Assembly: GCF_004293625.1 (NCBI RefSeq)
Contig: NZ_CP033040.1
Location: forward strand, 124,001-188,000
From: Thiomicrorhabdus indica
Lineage (GTDB): Bacteria > Pseudomonadota > Gammaproteobacteria > Thiomicrospirales > Thiomicrospiraceae
DNA: 64,000 nucleotides
Direction: 5' to 3'
Part shown: positions 30,805-37,189 of the stretch, in pieces
Layout: each line of letters starts with the position of its first letter
Position numbering within the stretch: position 1 is the stretch's first letter
Position numbers and translations under genes: made by a program
The notes under the pieces: model-generated
Database searches by the model: none
The model's input: the letters and a program-made list of their open reading frames with translations, nothing else
What the model was told of the DNA's origin: nothing

Positions 30805-31575
30805 TTATATTTTTATGTATTTCCAACCACTATTCATGCGTTCAGCCATTGCATCAACAGCTGGCTTTTCTGAATTGACTTGATCAATGATTTTTAAATA
30901 GGGTGAACTACTTTGACGAGCTCGGTATAACGATCGTTGGCAGGCGTATAAGTTCAGTGAGGGGTATTGTTCGGCGAGAGCTTTCAATTGACTACTATAT
31001 GGGTTGTTAATATCGTACATATAAACCCCCTTGTAGTTAGTGATTACATCGACTTCGATTAACTCATTGGATTCATTCTCAGAGTAGATTTGCATAATTT
31101 TTTCAATCGCTGCCATATGCTTAATTGGATCATCGGAATCTACGTGAATCATAAATTTAGAGCGATTTTGGTTAAGCGAAAAGGCATCTGTTGTCTCAGG
31201 CAGAAATTGTGTTGTAGGCGTTAAAACTTGGTTGTGCCAAACCTGGCTGGCACCGAAAACACCAATAATGGCACCAAAGAAAATTCCTGTTACGCCGGCC
31301 GCAATTATAGGAATAGGTTTCCAATAAGAAGCTTTTCTGTAGTTTGAATATTGTTTTTTGGCAGAAAAAGCTGGCTCAGGAATGTTTAATGTGTCGTAAG
31401 CATGAGGCACAAGCTGTTTCAGATATTTGTAATCGTGCAGCTTATTCCTTAGTTCAAGGTTTGAGGAGATTTTTTCTTCGAATGCTCTCTTCTCTTCTTC
31501 ACTGAGCTGGTCATCCAAATAAGGATGAATTAACCATTCGTCTGAATTCGATAAGGTGGTTTGTTTTGTCTCCAT
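30805..31575 (-). CDS. Transmembrane anti-sigma factor with C-terminal DsrE-like domain
   Basis: A 256-residue membrane protein. Residues about 1-85 are an anti-sigma-type cytoplasmic part (WLIHPYLDDQLSEEEKRAFE, then ELRNKLHDYKYLKQLVP) without the HX3CX2C zinc site. One transmembrane helix follows (about 93-118, IPIIAAGVTGIFFGAIIGVF). The periplasmic part (about 135-256) aligns by eye with DsrE-family proteins: FMIHVDSDDPIKHMAAIEKI, a NPYSSQLKALAEQYP segment, ACQRSLYRARQ and a final GWKYIKI, as in COG1416. ATG 31575 is chosen over TTG 31599. It follows the ECF sigma gene by 42 bases. A fused DsrE sensor on an anti-sigma factor is unusual; the fusion is my reading. Confidence 0.75.
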   Translation of the reverse strand: METKQTTLSNSDEWLIHPYLDDQLSEEEKRAFEEKISSNLELRNKLHDYKYLKQLVPHAYDTLNIPEPAFSAKKQYSNYRKASYWKPIPIIAAGVTGIFFGAIIGVFGASQVWHNQVLTPTTQFLPETTDAFSLNQNRSKFMIHVDSDDPIKHMAAIEKIMQIYSENESNELIEVDVITNYKGVYMYDINNPYSSQLKALAEQYPSLNLYACQRSLYRARQSSSPYLKIIDQVNSEKPAVDAMAERMNSGWKYIKI

Positions 31576-31617
31576 TTTTGAATTCCACTCGACTTTCAAT
31601 TTCTAACAGTGATTAGC

Positions 31618-32205
31618 TTAAGCATGATTTTGCTTAAAAGGAATGATTTTCTGTTGTTTTTGTGAGCTTGGATGAATCGAGTTTTGTAATAAACGTTCTC
31701 TTAATTTTTCCCTTGCCCGTGATAGTCGGCTCATCACTGTTCCGATAGGTGTATCAGTAATATTACTAATTTCTTGGTAGCTAAATCCTTCTAAGTCGGC
31801 AAGTAACAAGGTTTCTTTTTGTTCAAAAGGTAACTTTTGAATGGCAATTTGCAGTTGATCGTTTTTTTGTTGTTCGATGACTAACTGTTCACTGCTTTGT
31901 GTTGAAAATAGCATGGTATCCAATGCACTTTCATCGGTTATTTGCCAGCGTTTTTTGTATCTCATATCATCTAAATAACAATTTCGCATAATCACAATTA
32001 ACCATTGTTTGCTTTTTTCAGGCTCTTTTAATGAATCAAATCGCTCAAGTGCCTTTAAAAAAGTTTCTTGAACTAAATCTTGTGATTCATGGCAATTCCC
32101 ACTCCATGCAAACGCAATTCTATAGAGTGACGAATAGTGTTCGGTCATTGCTATTTGAATGGTTTCAGCTGTGGTTTTTTTTGATTTTGAAAACAAAAAA
32201 CTCAT
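31618..32205 (-). CDS. ECF-type RNA polymerase sigma factor
   Basis: A 195-residue sigma-70 family factor with only regions 2 and 4. Region 2 shows LYRIAFAWSGNCHESQDLVQETFLKAL and the RYKKRW end (parts DLVQETFLKAL and WLIVIMRNCYLD are diagnostic). Region 4 has LPFEQKETLLLADLEGFSYQ and GTVMSRLSRAREKLRERL. ATG 32205 has AAGGAAG upstream; the longer frame to 32250 lacks one. It is first in the sigma/anti-sigma operon and divergent from the secreted DsrE gene, the most likely target along with itself. Confidence 0.9.
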   Translation of the reverse strand: MSFLFSKSKKTTAETIQIAMTEHYSSLYRIAFAWSGNCHESQDLVQETFLKALERFDSLKEPEKSKQWLIVIMRNCYLDDMRYKKRWQITDESALDTMLFSTQSSEQLVIEQQKNDQLQIAIQKLPFEQKETLLLADLEGFSYQEISNITDTPIGTVMSRLSRAREKLRERLLQNSIHPSSQKQQKIIPFKQNHA

Positions 32206-32695
32206 AAAACTTCCTTGCTTGATAAACGCTGATAGTGCCAAGTCTTTCATTCAGTACGACGTTTATTGAGGCGGCGATTTTATCGCACCTTTTTTAAAGA
32301 GCAAGTGATGATAAGGTATTGAAGTTAAGTTAAGTACTTTTTTGTGTTTACTAAATGCATCATATACAAGTAACCTATTTTTCTAAAAATCTCCCGTGAA
32401 ATAAAGGGTTGAATAGCTTTTGAACTAGGCTTGAAAATCCATGTAAATTAAAAGGCTATTCAAATTAATTATTTAACAATCAATTTATTTAGTGCGAGTT
32501 TATGGAATAAAAACAGTGAGTAATTCGTTTTTATAATAGAGTCTGTTTAAATTTGCTTGCAAAAAGTAATGAAGCCATGAGTTGGACGATTTGGGATAAT
32601 TTTGCACTGATTTGGATAGGCTCGTTTCACTTCGTACAGTTAAAGGGTTTGTTTTTACGACCTTTACTGAGATTTTTTACTTAAGGAGTATTTCT
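32206..32695. promoter_or_regulatory. Divergent regulatory region between the sigma operon and the DsrE gene
   Basis: 490 bp without a credible gene. A TATAAT (32532-32537) could be a -10 element for the DsrE gene, but no good -35 is seen. A short hairpin GCGAT/ATCGC followed by CTTTTTT lies near 32272-32297. AAGGAG (32683-32688) is the ribosome binding site of the DsrE gene. I could not identify a shared ECF promoter motif by eye. Confidence 0.4.
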
Positions 32696-33178
32696 ATGGG
32701 TGGATTGATGAAATACCAAGATCATTTAACGCAGGTGTGGATGATTTTAGTATTAACCCTGTCTCTAATGTTTACAAACTCTGCTCTTGCAGCTCAAGCA
32801 GAACTTCCATTGCCGGATACGTTTGCGGATCATAAAGTTGTTTTGCAAATTAGTGATCCAGATCCATTTAAACAACGATTGGTGTTGAATGTTGCAACAA
32901 ATTTACAGCGTTATTATGGCGCGAGTAATGTTGATATTGAGGTAGTTGCTTTTGGGCCTGGATTGCGTTTGATGATGGAAGGTAATCCTTACTCGGATCG
33001 AATTAAAAATTTGGCGACTTTGGGAGTGCGCTTCAGTGGTTGCGAAAATACACTCGCGCACATGACAAAAATTTTAGGAAGAACTCCTGAATTACAAGAA
33101 GTCGTGACCAAGGCTCCTGCAGGTGCGGGGCGTATTCTGCAATTAAATGCCGCTGGTTGGCAAATTTTGAAACCTTAG
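32696..33178 (+). CDS. Secreted DsrE-family protein
   Basis: A 160-residue protein with a signal peptide (about 1-35, ending NSALA-AQAE) and one DsrE-like domain: HKVVLQISDPDPFKQRLVLN, IEVVAFGPGLRLMMEGNPYS, FSGCENTLAHMTK and a C-terminal LQLNAAGWQILKP. DsrE-family proteins handle protein-bound persulfides or related small sulfur species; the Cys in SGCENT is the conserved one. ATG 32696 has AAGGAG 7 bases upstream; the frame extends earlier to 32612 without a ribosome site. It is divergent from the sigma factor whose anti-sigma partner has a similar domain, and is followed by a porin. Confidence 0.85.
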   Translation: MGGLMKYQDHLTQVWMILVLTLSLMFTNSALAAQAELPLPDTFADHKVVLQISDPDPFKQRLVLNVATNLQRYYGASNVDIEVVAFGPGLRLMMEGNPYSDRIKNLATLGVRFSGCENTLAHMTKILGRTPELQEVVTKAPAGAGRILQLNAAGWQILKP

Positions 33179-33344
33179 AGTGGTATTGCTCGTGATGTTG
33201 GTAGCTCTTAGCTCTGAGCGCTTTTGATTACGACATTGTTAAGCCACAACAGAGTGAAATTTGAATTTTAAACGCGTTTTATTACAAATCATTTTATAAA
33301 AAATCATAAGAAAAAATAGCGCATAAATCTTTTAGAGGAAAAAA

Positions 33345-34616
33345 ATGAAAAAGAGATTCAACCTTAGTTTGATTGTTCCTGTCTCCTTATCCGCAGTGTT
33401 CATGGCTTCGAATGCTATGGCTGCTAACTGGTTGATGCTACAAGGCACAGAGCCAGAGCATCAGGCACCTGCAACAAAATTGTGGGGGTTTGTACAGGCG
33501 GAATATATTAAAACTGACGACACCAAACTACCCAATGGTAATTCGGCTGCCTTTAATCAGATTGCACCGCAACTGGATACCGCTGATAGCTTCAATGTTA
33601 AGCGTGCTCGAATTGGGGTGCGCGGAAATAACTTACTGCTAGATTCAAAGGTAAATTATTTCTTATTGGCCGAGTTTGGGAATAACGGCCTGACCACAGG
33701 CGGTAACGCATCAAGAGGACAATTAACCGATGCGAGTGTAACTCTTAACCATATTCCTGGTGCCAGAGTTCGAGTGGGTCTATTTAAAACCCCAGGAAGC
33801 GAAGAGGGAATGCAAGCCGTTGCCGTGGCGAATTACATTAATTTTAGTAATGTTACAGACCGCATTTTAAACGAACGCTATTTTGAAAATTCGGTGGGTA
33901 ACACTGGGCGTTCTGCACCGGCCGGTGCATTCCGAGATACAGGTGTGCAGGTGTTTGATACGTTTAATTATGGTGATTGGTCTCATACCTACGCGTTAAT
34001 GTATGGGAATGGCTATGGCGTTGAGATGAGTGATAACGATAGCCATAAGGATGTTTATGCGTATTTATCGACTGAAAAACATTTCAGCAAAAACCGTGGT
34101 GGTCGCAGCGACAGTATGAAGTTTTATGTTTGGCACCAAAATGGTAAGCGAACTCTCAATGATGTCGGAACGGTCGACCGCAAAAGAACGGGGTTAGGTG
34201 CGACTTATTTTGACGGAACTTTCCGTTTAGGCGCGGAATATGTCACAGCAGACGGAATGATTTATGGTGGTACCAGTGGTGCGGGTGTTCCGGATGACGG
34301 CGCAACCTTTAGTGTGTTACCTGACGAAAAAGCGAAAGGATATTATCTGGATCTTGGTTATAGAGTGATTCCAAGCTTAGAACTGAATGTTCGCTATGAC
34401 ATGCTTGATAGTGCGACAGAAACGGCAAGTTTGCATCGCGAGTTTCAAACGACCACGCTTGGTATGCAGTATTTTGTCAATAAAAAAACAACGCTGCGTT
34501 TGAATTATGAGTTGCGTGATATTGATGCGCCAGATTTACCTAGCACAGCACCTGTTCATAAAGTTTTAGAATCGATCGATGATCGAATCTCTGCGCAGGT
34601 GAGTGTGCATTTTTAA
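33345..34616 (+). CDS. Outer-membrane porin, OprO/OprP-like
   Basis: A 423-residue beta-barrel porin. The signal peptide ends SNAMA-ANWL. FNVKRARIGVRGNNLLLDSK and ARVRVGLFKTPGSEEGMQA match the phosphate-selective porin O/P pattern; alternating amphipathic strands continue to the C-terminal AQVSVHF, ending in the Phe needed for barrel assembly. AGAGGAAAAAA precedes the ATG. Anion specificity is suggested by family, not proven. It lies 166 bases after the DsrE gene and ends at a rho-independent terminator. The palindrome at 33917 encodes APAGA. Confidence 0.85.
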   Translation: MKKRFNLSLIVPVSLSAVFMASNAMAANWLMLQGTEPEHQAPATKLWGFVQAEYIKTDDTKLPNGNSAAFNQIAPQLDTADSFNVKRARIGVRGNNLLLDSKVNYFLLAEFGNNGLTTGGNASRGQLTDASVTLNHIPGARVRVGLFKTPGSEEGMQAVAVANYINFSNVTDRILNERYFENSVGNTGRSAPAGAFRDTGVQVFDTFNYGDWSHTYALMYGNGYGVEMSDNDSHKDVYAYLSTEKHFSKNRGGRSDSMKFYVWHQNGKRTLNDVGTVDRKRTGLGATYFDGTFRLGAEYVTADGMIYGGTSGAGVPDDGATFSVLPDEKAKGYYLDLGYRVIPSLELNVRYDMLDSATETASLHREFQTTTLGMQYFVNKKTTLRLNYELRDIDAPDLPSTAPVHKVLESIDDRISAQVSVHF

Positions 34617-34669
34617 TGGATAAAACGCGGCTAGTGTCTTCTTGATTCTAACGCGTGTATTTTTCGAAG

Positions 34670-34700
34670 CCTCCGCATGCAAGTTTGTGCGGGGGTTTTT
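34670..34700 (+). terminator. Rho-independent terminator after the porin
   Basis: CCTCCGCA (34670-34677) pairs with TGCGGGGG (34688-34695) with one G-U pair, followed directly by TTTTTG. It overlaps the upstream open frame of the chemoreceptor and so argues that the latter starts further down. Confidence 0.85.
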
Positions 34701-34732
34701 GTTTTTGTGATTTGCGTTTTTTAATCCGTCAC

Positions 34733-37189
34733 ATGAACGTATTTTTGGGAGTGACTATTTTGAAAAGTATTTCTGCAAAACTATTAATCAGAATGTTGAT
34801 TGTCAGTATGACGGGAATGGTGATTGGTTTGTTTGTGATTATGCAGGCAAGTTCCAAGTTGCATTATTCAACCGCCCAGAACTTGGTCAATCAAAAAAAA
34901 GAGTGGGCGGAATCTTTGATTGATTCTAAAGTTCAAAATACTTTGAGTATTTTATTGAGCTCCATCAGCACGAACCCAGAATGGGGGGAATATTTTGTTA
35001 ATAAAGATGTTAAAGGTATGCACCAACTTGCCAACAAGCTAAGTGATTCCTTTGCAAGTAAAACCACAGCAAAAGGTTTGAATTTTGTTGCTTTTGATAA
35101 TGAAAATCGAATTTTTATGCGTAGTTTTAAACCTTTGCCAGATGCCGCTTTAGGAAAGAAAGCCCCCAGAAACTTTAGTGACCTACTTTCTGGAAAGCAA
35201 CCACTTCAAGCCAAAATTGATTTGTCTGGGGTGGGGTTATTTATTACCGCAAGTGTGCCGGTCTCTTCTCCAACAGATGACACAAAGATTGTCGGAGTTT
35301 TAGATATTCGTTCAGGGTTAGAATCGGTTGTTGAGGAGCTTTCTGCCAATGGCACCTATTTTTTAGCGGTCATTAATGAAAAAGGACTAGAGCGTTGGAA
35401 AAAAGGCAGTGAAAGTGACAAATTAGGCAGTTACTATCTTGCCAATAAGAAGTGGTTTTCCAGCAGTCAGGAGTGGTTTAAATCCGTTGATATTGACCAA
35501 TTGGTTCATGAAAAATTTATTAATTTAGATGATCGGTCAATGGTTTCTAAACCCATTTTGAATGGTCAGGGTGAAGTGGTTGGCCACTATCTAATTGGTT
35601 TAGATGAATCTCACCCAGATATGCTGAATGCCATGCAAGGGGTGAATCAAATCATTCTTCTTATGGTTATTTTGGTTGTTGTTCTGGTTGTTTTGCTATT
35701 AATCCTTTTAGCCTACAGTACACGAGTGATTGTGCAGCAGCCGATACAATCAATTTTGCAGGCGATTCGCAGTGTTCATGAATCCGGCCATTTTACAACC
35801 AATCTTCACAGTGATTCTAAAGATGAAGTGGGTGAAATGTTGCGAGCATTCAATGCATTGATGCAAAGAACAAACTCTGCTTTGCAAGAAGCGAACGCGA
35901 CAGTGGGTGCGATTGCGAAAGGAAACTTTACCAAGCGTATGGAGCAAGACTATATCGGTGACCTTCTGACTCTAAAAGAGGGGGTAAACCAGAGTGCGCA
36001 TAGCGTTGAATTTGTGATGACTGAATTGCAAAAAGTGATGCAAGGCTTAGTTGATGGTCAGTTTGATATTCGGATGAGTGATCAGGTTGCACAGAATTTT
36101 AGGGATGATGTGGATAAAGCGATGCATTCGATTCAAACAGTGATTCAGCAAGTGAACCAAGCGATGCAAGCAATGAATTTAGGCGACTTCAGCTCACGAG
36201 TAGAATGTGAGGCTCGTGGTGAATTACGTCGATTAGTGAACCATGTGAATGATTCGGTAAAAGCGATTGATTCTGCGATTTATGAAATCTTAGATGTCGC
36301 CTCTGCACAGTCACAAGGAGATTTAACACGCTCGGTCAATGGTGATTATAAAGGCCAATTAAATGAGCTTAAATTAGTGATTAATGCGTCAAACTCTCAG
36401 CTTAATGAGATTGTTATGAGTGCCATGCAAATTGCCAATCAGGTGAGTGGCGCTGCTGAAGAGGTGTCTTTGGGTGCAAATGATTTGAGTGATCAGGTTC
36501 AACAGCAAGCCGCTTCGGTGGAGCAAACTTCTGCGACTATGACACAAATGAATGTTGCGGTGCAAAACAACCGTGAGCATGTTGAAAAAGCCTCTGAAGA
36601 AGCCCAAAAGGTGAAAGAAAAAGTTGTGCATGGCAGTGAGGTTATGCAGCAGAACATTAACGCAATCAATGCTATTCAAGAGTCCAGTCATAAGATTAAT
36701 GATATTGTCGGCTTGATAGATAGTATTGCGTTCCAAACCAATTTGCTGGCTTTGAATGCAGCCGTTGAAGCGGCCAGAGCAGGGGAGCATGGTCGAGGAT
36801 TTGCGGTGGTTGCGAGTGAAGTTCGAGCACTGGCGCAAAAGTCTGCAGACGCTGCGAAAGAGATTACAGCTTTAGTGAATGAAAATACAGTGAGTATTGA
36901 ACAAGGTACGGAACTGACTCAACAATCAGGTGAGGTTTTACAACAGATTCATGCGTCTGTTGAATTGGTTTCTGACATGATTCAGCAGATTGATGATGCG
37001 ACTGCTGAGCAGGCGACAGGCATTGAACAAGTCCATAAAGCCATCGATTTGATTGATTCAGGGGCTCAGCAAAATGCGGCTTTGGTTGAGCAAACCAGTG
37101 CAGCGTCCGAAAGCCTTACAGAGCAAGCACAATCGCTCCGAGCTGATATGGGCAAATTCAAGACAAAAAACCTCCTGCCTTCATCTTAG
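34733..37189 (+). CDS. Methyl-accepting chemotaxis protein with Cache-like sensor and multiple HAMP domains
   Basis: An 818-residue transmembrane chemoreceptor. TM1 (about 20-40) and TM2 (about 305-330, [20 protein letters not shown]) enclose a large periplasmic sensor with a Cache-like pattern. Several HAMP-type units follow (about 330-560, marked by repeats such as [16 protein letters not shown] and LGDFSSRV). The signalling hairpin [20 protein letters not shown] leads into [23 protein letters not shown] 34733 has no ribosome site; TTG 34760 has GGGAG 8 bases upstream and is a real alternative. No CheA/CheW genes are nearby, so it feeds a system encoded elsewhere. Confidence 0.92.

Follow-up and report, generated by a model that had tools for sequence, protein, structure and literature searches.

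A DsrE-fold domain on the membrane anti-sigma factor of a conserved ECF sigma gene set: a putative sulfur-sensing switch in sulfur-oxidising Gammaproteobacteria

Results

In a 64,000-nucleotide stretch of DNA from Thiomicrorhabdus indica (contig NZ_CP033040.1, positions 124,001 to 188,000), called the window in the following, four genes within positions 30805-34616 make up a set that we interpret as a putative sulfur-sensing switch. The minus strand encodes an extracytoplasmic function (ECF) sigma factor and, downstream of it, an anti-sigma factor, and the plus strand an exported DsrE protein and a porin-type protein, with the sigma gene and the secreted DsrE gene transcribed divergently. The C-terminal domain of the anti-sigma factor is, by its predicted structure, a DsrE fold. 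The features are as follows:

30805..31575, minus strand: anti-sigma factor with a DsrE-type C-terminal domain (256 residues from the start METK; open reading frame (ORF) 30805-31599)
31390..31542, minus strand: putative N-terminal cytoplasmic anti-sigma part, residues ~12-62, without zinc ligands (AlphaFold helices, zf-HC2 and RseA_N matches)
31258..31314, minus strand: single membrane helix, residues ~88-106 (hydropathy)
30808..31164, minus strand: putative periplasmic DsrE-fold domain, residues ~138-256 (AlphaFold, structure and profile matches)
30940..30942, minus strand: codon of the invariant anti-sigma cysteine C212 (codon position checked)
31618..32250, minus strand: ECF sigma factor (matches to Pfam regions 2 and 4; translation probably begins at an internal methionine near 32208)
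32504..32530, plus strand: predicted ECF promoter GGAATAAA-N14-CGTTT upstream of the secreted DsrE gene (motif match, conservation)
32708..33178, plus strand: secreted DsrE protein, 156 residues (ORF 32612-33178; signal peptide judged by eye)
33041..33043, plus strand: codon of the conserved secreted DsrE cysteine C112 (codon position checked)
33345..34616, plus strand: porin of a distantly Porin_O_P-like family (relatives' Pfam matches, gene order)
34666..34699, plus strand: terminator-like hairpin after the porin (weak evidence, as the region holds 3 such sites against 3.9 expected from shuffles)

The starts of the anti-sigma protein (METK at 31575, chosen by eye and alignment) and of the secreted protein (32708) are likely ones. 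The sigma protein matches Pfam region 2 (PF04542, 45.4 bits against a cut-off of 24, E 7e-12) and region 4 (PF08281, 56.9 bits against 25.7, E 1.6e-15). Together with the recurrence in many genomes described below, these matches confirm the ECF sigma/anti-sigma pair, with the coordinates, that an earlier note on this DNA had proposed.

For the N-terminal part of the anti-sigma protein AlphaFold predicts helices at residues 12-20, 26-38 and 40-62. The window protein matches zf-HC2 in this part below the cut-off (17.1 against 22.2 bits); within the family, 20/28 members match zf-HC2 and 2/28 match RseA_N at E 0.01 or better. The zinc motif Hx3Cx2C is absent from the window protein and from its relatives (0/105), so that the presumed cytoplasmic part indeed lacks the zinc ligands, as the earlier note had stated. 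The structure list obtained with VIA, which did not test the N-terminal part, gives no anti-sigma chain. A single cysteine in the N-terminal part is frequent in relatives (65/105) and missing from the window protein; no role is claimed for it. One membrane helix had been postulated, and a single hydrophobic stretch was found at residues 88-106, with a mean hydropathy of 2.24 over 19 residues; 90/105 relatives reach 1.6. The single helix suggests that the DsrE domain lies outside the inner membrane, and the membrane protein probably holds the sigma factor inactive.

A DsrE-like C-terminal domain had been suggested from the letters alone, with structure prediction named as the check. Resemblance within the window is insufficient for this claim, since phmmer gave no match between the anti-sigma and the secreted protein, and the DsrE part of the former reaches 21% identity and 28.9 bits to the latter with composition correction off. 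Pfam and NCBIfam, run on the window proteins alone, likewise gave no DsrE match above cut-off in either protein; NCBIfam returned a weak TusC match for the anti-sigma protein (E 0.076). In the structure model of the anti-sigma protein, built on an alignment of 28 proteins, the mean predicted local distance difference test score of ten-residue blocks is 87-98 from residue 141 onward. Foldseek gave eight matches at E 0.001 or better, every one of them a DsrE-type protein or a design derived from such a protein. In the VIA comparison the sensor domain is closest to MTH1491 (1l1s; Z 17.7, root-mean-square deviation 2.1 over 111 residues), followed by YchN (Z 14.4), chain A of TusBCD (2d1p_A, Z 13.6), which we take to be TusD, and chain A of DsrEFH (2hy5_A, Z 13.4), presumably DsrE. 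Altogether ten DsrE-type chains, one of them a design, score Z 17.7-11.3, and the next row outside the group has Z 6.7. The family profile of the anti-sigma protein matches solved MTH1491 with E 9.6e-16. Moreover, the distant relative at locus L030 exceeds the Pfam DsrE cut-off (29.1 against 22.7 bits), and 5/28 members match DsrE at E 0.01. Structure, profile and this relative thus agree in assigning the C-terminal domain to the DsrE fold (PF02635).

The sole cysteine of the window anti-sigma protein is C212. Its counterpart in the sensor domain is kept in 28/28 aligned and 141/141 unique full-length fused anti-sigma proteins, none of which (0 of the 141) has a second cysteine in its C-terminal 125 residues. 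All of them (141/141) also have a tryptophan close to the C-terminal end. In profile alignments, the conserved cysteines of the fused anti-sigma and the secreted DsrE families each fall in the column of the MTH1491 cysteine, an equivalence established through MTH1491 and not residue by residue with DsrE or TusD. The matching cysteine of the secreted protein, C112, is found in 23/23 aligned and 158/159 proteins. As the sensor domain contains one cysteine, it can form no internal disulfide; C212 may instead be modified at its thiol or engage in an intermolecular bond.

The plus-strand gene had been read as a secreted DsrE protein of the same type, followed by a porin. Both its profile and its structure model match the same DsrE fold as the sensor domain, including MTH1491. 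The window copy of the porin has no Pfam match, and a search with the porin profile yielded no solved structure at E 1. Of 14 aligned relatives, 8 match Porin_O_P at E 0.1 or better, the best of them at 8.3e-18. This distant relation would fit a role in taking up anions, for example thiosulfate or polythionates. The porin lies at most 900 bp from a secreted DsrE gene in 75/75 loci with at least 1 kb downstream, where among several DsrE genes the one followed by the porin was taken, so the porin may stand behind a second DsrE gene. The next gene downstream of the porin, in the same orientation, encodes a methyl-accepting chemotaxis protein (window positions 34655-37189). Its longest ORF has the hairpin at 34666-34699 near its beginning, so translation probably starts further downstream.

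A survey of genomes had been named as a further check. In named genomes 211 relatives of the exported protein were found, the closest mostly from Thiomicrorhabdus and Hydrogenovibrio with best identities of 63-71%, and the best 79 loci were kept. Among these best 79 of 211 are Thiomicrorhabdus, Hydrogenovibrio, Thiomicrospira, Sulfurivirga, Guyparkeria, Halothiobacillus, Thiohalobacter and Sedimenticola, as well as many Gammaproteobacteria known from metagenomes. One locus with the whole gene set, L130, is from a record titled Phycisphaerales, perhaps through misbinning or transfer. Sigma and fused anti-sigma genes are both present at 57/63 secreted-DsrE loci with at least 3 kb upstream. The earlier note had named two refuting outcomes, a predicted structure unlike DsrE and a lack of co-occurrence of the sigma, fusion and DsrE genes in other genomes; neither was observed. 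Conversely, 191/197 full-length fused anti-sigma ORFs have a sigma ORF within 400 bases and the remaining 6 overlap the sigma ORF; the 197 include duplicate fetches and correspond to 141 unique proteins and 136 unique pairs. The relatives behind the counting profiles coincide in part with the counted loci. Greedy ORF calling missed the anti-sigma gene in 5/20 loci (L161, L164, L173, L176, L178). The recurrence of the gene set in many genomes argues that the arrangement is not due to chance.

Among relatives, 31/58 genomes (this one included) match the anti-sigma protein. In a class-wide sample, 122/369 genomes match the anti-sigma profile at 1e-5, plain DsrE proteins included; full-length fused matches, defined by a start at profile position 10 or earlier and an end at 227 or later, are listed for at least 87 places in 39 families and at least 65/369 genomes, a lower bound read from the table. 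In a sample of the phylum, 3/398 genomes match at 1e-22, again including this one and all from the same class. Neighbour clustering revealed no additional family that recurs in over 15 loci, compared with 83-105 for the module's own clusters; most neighbours are unannotated. The distances among sigma factors are correlated with those among DsrE domains (r 0.73 with a permutation p of 0.001, in 90 of 136 pairs), as would be expected of cognate sigma/anti-sigma pairs, and shared ancestry alone would also produce a correlation.

Other genes were seen beside the pair. Related proteins of 538-556 residues with apparent signal peptides adjoin it in L204 (3713-5383), L210 (3721-5337) and L231 (4636-6267); those of L204 and L210 have no Pfam match, and the family is a possible further output. 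In five loci (L206 7109-8266, L213 7451-8722, L214 8211-9485, L215 8157-9431, L222 1857-3104) the fused anti-sigma gene is followed directly by a member of a second, apparently exported family of ~385-424 residues, and the two members scanned, from L213 and L215, have no Pfam match. GroEL-like genes, recognised by eye, stand beside the pair in L166, L179, L203, L209 and L235, which is probably synteny.

The intergenic stretches between sigma and DsrE genes have a promoter-like motif, GGAATA-N16-CGTY, in common. It faces the DsrE gene in 49/84 stretches, with 0.03 expected per strand. These 84 include duplicate genomes; in the 71 unique stretches the strict motif points toward the secreted DsrE gene in 38 and toward sigma in 18, and a looser motif occurs in either direction in 52/71, with 0 in the reversed control. 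In the window, the sole GGAATA-N16-CGT match in 64 kb is at 32504. With 0.30 matches expected, and one also found in 26/100 shuffles, the weight of this site rests on conservation and position.

The same genome contains a second module near 2.78 Mb (G000:C1:2779718-2781797; L035 5719-7798) with sigma, fused anti-sigma and an exported DsrE protein of another subtype, which exceeds the Pfam DsrE cut-off; the motif is present there and the porin is not adjoining. Genome-wide, GGAATAAA-N13..14-CGT has 6 sites against 5 in the reversed control, and GGAATA-N16-CGTYT 6 against 2. Both patterns coincide at two sites only, upstream of the secreted DsrE genes of the two modules. As neither pattern alone clearly beats its control, no further regulon member is claimed; the four other GGAATAAA-N13..14-CGT sites fall within coding regions or where a gene begins.

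Across 66 loci (849 kb, with one contig included twice as L163 and L223), for which profile labels replaced the greedy ORFs, a similar pattern occurs 62 times: 28 of these sites precede sigma, 11 DsrE genes, 4 porins, 2 SoxB-like genes and 1 an anti-sigma ORF, and 16 lie elsewhere. In L037, L042, L166 and L224, which have no DsrE gene there, the motif stands before the porin. Six other loci (L092, L111, L123, L127, L136, L152) encode an exported DsrE protein and a porin and have neither sigma nor anti-sigma gene in the fetched flanks, nor the motif in the 500 bases upstream, which indicates that the DsrE-porin pair also exists under other control. At the random rate (84/1200 stretches) ~0.4 motif matches would be expected in these six, so they show only the lack of what 47/71 pair-bearing loci have.

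A link to sulfur oxidation comes from SoxB, scored as present at E below 1e-110 (150/369 genomes; the curated cut-off gives 148). It was found in 64/65 genomes with a listed full-length fusion against 86/304 others (Fisher p 1.9e-28, uncorrected for relatedness); the fusion-bearing exception is G090, which is 93% complete. In addition, four loci have sox genes at most a few kb away from the pair. L175 has SoxB, a SoxA-like gene and a TsuA-like transporter that scores under its cut-off; in L199 and L200 SoxB is accompanied by SoxA or a SoxA-like gene; the SoxB genes of these three loci also appear in the SoxB survey. L234 has a SoxB-like gene (by similarity), a SoxA-like gene, a cytochrome c taken for SoxX and a PF04143 sulfur-transport protein. 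In two further loci the divergent DsrE gene is replaced by a SoxB-like gene of the 5'-nucleotidase family preceded by the motif: L165 (1-1362; 100.9 bits against the SoxB cut-off of 550) and L236 (3286-5460; found by similarity to SoxB, with Pfam 5'-nucleotidase domains). The earlier note had left the signal as sulfur or redox. These associations sustain the sulfur part, and the redox part is less well supported because an intramolecular disulfide is impossible.

Discussion

We favour, with a probability of about 0.58, a trans-envelope ECF sigma switch that senses periplasmic sulfur species in sulfur-oxidising Gammaproteobacteria and controls the secreted DsrE protein and the porin. The cytoplasmic part of the anti-sigma factor would retain the sigma factor at the inner membrane, and the periplasmic DsrE-fold domain would present its invariant cysteine at the place usual for DsrE-type cysteines. 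An external reduced sulfur compound would modify this cysteine, directly or via the secreted DsrE protein; candidate signals are sulfane sulfur, polysulfide, tetrathionate or sulfite, made or used by the periplasmic Sox route. Modification would release the sigma factor, which could then transcribe the secreted DsrE gene and the porin from GGAATA-N16-CGTY promoters, and in many relatives its own operon. The porin may admit thiosulfate or polythionates. In Metallosphaera, the cysteines of the cytoplasmic protein DsrE3A accept thiosulfate groups from tetrathionate, and the protein is not modified by polysulfide, thiosulfate or sulfite (PMC4175335); this chemical precedent favours tetrathionate.

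Within such a switch the exported DsrE protein may be a donor, a competitor or a mere target. A neighbouring copy is apparently not always needed, since L037, L042, L166 and L224 lack a neighbouring DsrE gene. One tentative and rather doubtful form is a sulfur relay, in which the secreted DsrE protein would take up a periplasmic sulfur group and transfer it from its own cysteine to that of the anti-sigma factor's DsrE domain. If so, transcription would be set by the sulfur-trafficking reaction itself, acting as the signal across the membrane.

The same parts could also be read without chemical sensing. The domain might be a docking module to which the secreted DsrE protein binds, its amount or state setting sigma activity with feedback on the porin, following the pattern by which RseB acts on RseA. 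The common fold and cysteine of the sensor domain and the neighbouring gene's product, the neighbourhood of the DsrE and sigma/fused anti-sigma genes in 57/63 loci, and the mixed oligomers of DsrE-type proteins (the DsrEFH and TusBCD structures are titled as complexes) would all suit docking. We nevertheless consider it unlikely: L037, L042, L166 and L224 have sigma, fused anti-sigma and porin, no nearby DsrE gene, and yet keep the cysteine (read through the duplicates L032 and L062 for L037 and L166), which is more than docking alone demands. The invariant cysteine also speaks against an envelope-stress switch of the sigma-E type, in which a porin or outer-membrane signal would lead to proteolytic release and the DsrE fold would be used with sulfur incidental. 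That the anti-sigma factor has a single helix, that the porin is near the DsrE gene in 75/75 loci and that RseA_N is weakly matched by 2/28 members fits such a switch, which we still judge to be quite improbable in view of SoxB in 64/65 fusion genomes, the neighbouring sox genes and the SoxB-like genes behind the motif. Least probable, and to our mind hardly credible, is a response to anion or phosphate limitation, with a phosphate-selective-like porin and a DsrE domain that binds an oxyanion without covalent chemistry. The Porin_O_P matches (8/14 porins at E 0.1 or better) prompt this idea, but it leaves the invariant cysteine unexplained and is at odds with the SoxB association and with the neighbourhoods, in which most genes are unannotated and no family outside the module exceeds 15 loci.

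Several observations weigh against a sulfur-sensing switch as we propose it. A DsrE fold need not by itself imply sulfur transfer; the structure entry of MTH1491 is titled 'unknown function'. Neither strand carries the motif in 19/71 unique stretches, and the window's own intergenic stretch has none facing the sigma gene. Of 40 further loci, many of which are second copies, only 18 proved to have a DsrE gene and 12 a porin. The SoxB association is uncorrected for relatedness, and one of the 64 genomes, G134, has a partial SoxB match that drops out at the curated cut-off; moreover, 86/150 SoxB genomes have no listed full-length fusion, so that the fusion is not needed for thiosulfate oxidation. 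Ligand or expression data for the sigma/anti-sigma pair were not found.

DsrE, TusD, YchN and MTH1491 have the same fold (PF02635) as the sensor domain, and MTH1491 also has the conserved cysteine. DsrE and TusD are soluble cytoplasmic sulfur-transfer proteins; here, in contrast, an anti-sigma factor carries one copy as a fused domain, and the other copy is exported. A DsrE cysteine has been described to bind sulfur (PMC6620896). Class I anti-sigma factors such as RseA and RskA have an N-terminal anti-sigma part, which is putative in the present protein, and likewise the cognate sigma gene next door, with a membrane helix in ~65% and the zinc motif in ~56% (~44% without) (PMC7406223); the present protein differs in its C-terminal DsrE fold and lacks a match to Hx3Cx2C. 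The ECF26 systems of Sinorhizobium meliloti (RpoE1/RpoE4), which respond to sulfite, also combine an ECF sigma factor and an adjoining anti-sigma factor with a link to inorganic sulfur oxidation, and their promoters have GAA in the -35 and GT in the -10 element, as in the present motif (PMC3511301); a sulfur-linked ECF response to sulfite is also described in PMC6527743. The ECF26 target is a sulfite oxidase, however, whereas here the secreted DsrE protein and the porin would be controlled, and they, not sulfite oxidase genes, are the neighbours of the window pair. The ECF26 account describes no DsrE domain (PMC3511301), and the likeness noted is one of arrangement, sulfur link and promoter elements. 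In SoxR/sHdrR systems with SoxT importers a sulfur signal likewise controls sulfur oxidation (PMC11582611, PMC10451225, PMC12423496); unlike these transcriptional repressors, which need SoxT1B for the signal, the present system would sense outside the inner membrane.

An ECF sigma factor with a membrane anti-sigma factor is thus of a known kind, and the DsrE domain as its sensor appears to be new. In agreement with the earlier note, which knew of no described system of this form, no description of a DsrE domain as sensor of a sigma/anti-sigma pair was found among the open-access papers searched, judged mostly by title and abstract, with subscription journals, preprints and ECF-classification supplements outside the scope; an unnamed entry in those supplements is possible. 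In the main text of the ECF papers PMC7406223 and PMC8103513 DsrE is unmentioned. Text matches to 'dsre' in PMC3511301 (reference list) and PMC2729926 refer to DsRed, the DsrE mentions in PMC10512742 and PMC12563154 are separate and unrelated, and the Allochromatium protein of PMC11267869 is the DsrE of the dsr operon. DsrE/F-like genes and a porin change in Thioalkalivibrio arsenite transcriptomes (PMC6620896), and a porin is the commonest protein of the Riftia symbiont (PMC7787665); neither report is tied to this gene set.

How regulators of sulfur oxidisers sense external sulfur was called poorly understood in 2024 (PMC11582611). A DsrE sensor on an anti-sigma factor, with an invariant cysteine and a readable motif, would make this sensing directly testable, in cultivated Thiomicrorhabdus or Hydrogenovibrio or in a two-plasmid Escherichia coli reporter, and could yield a sulfur-responsive genetic part. 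For the organisms themselves, the switch may be how sulfur oxidisers feel external sulfur compounds arriving.

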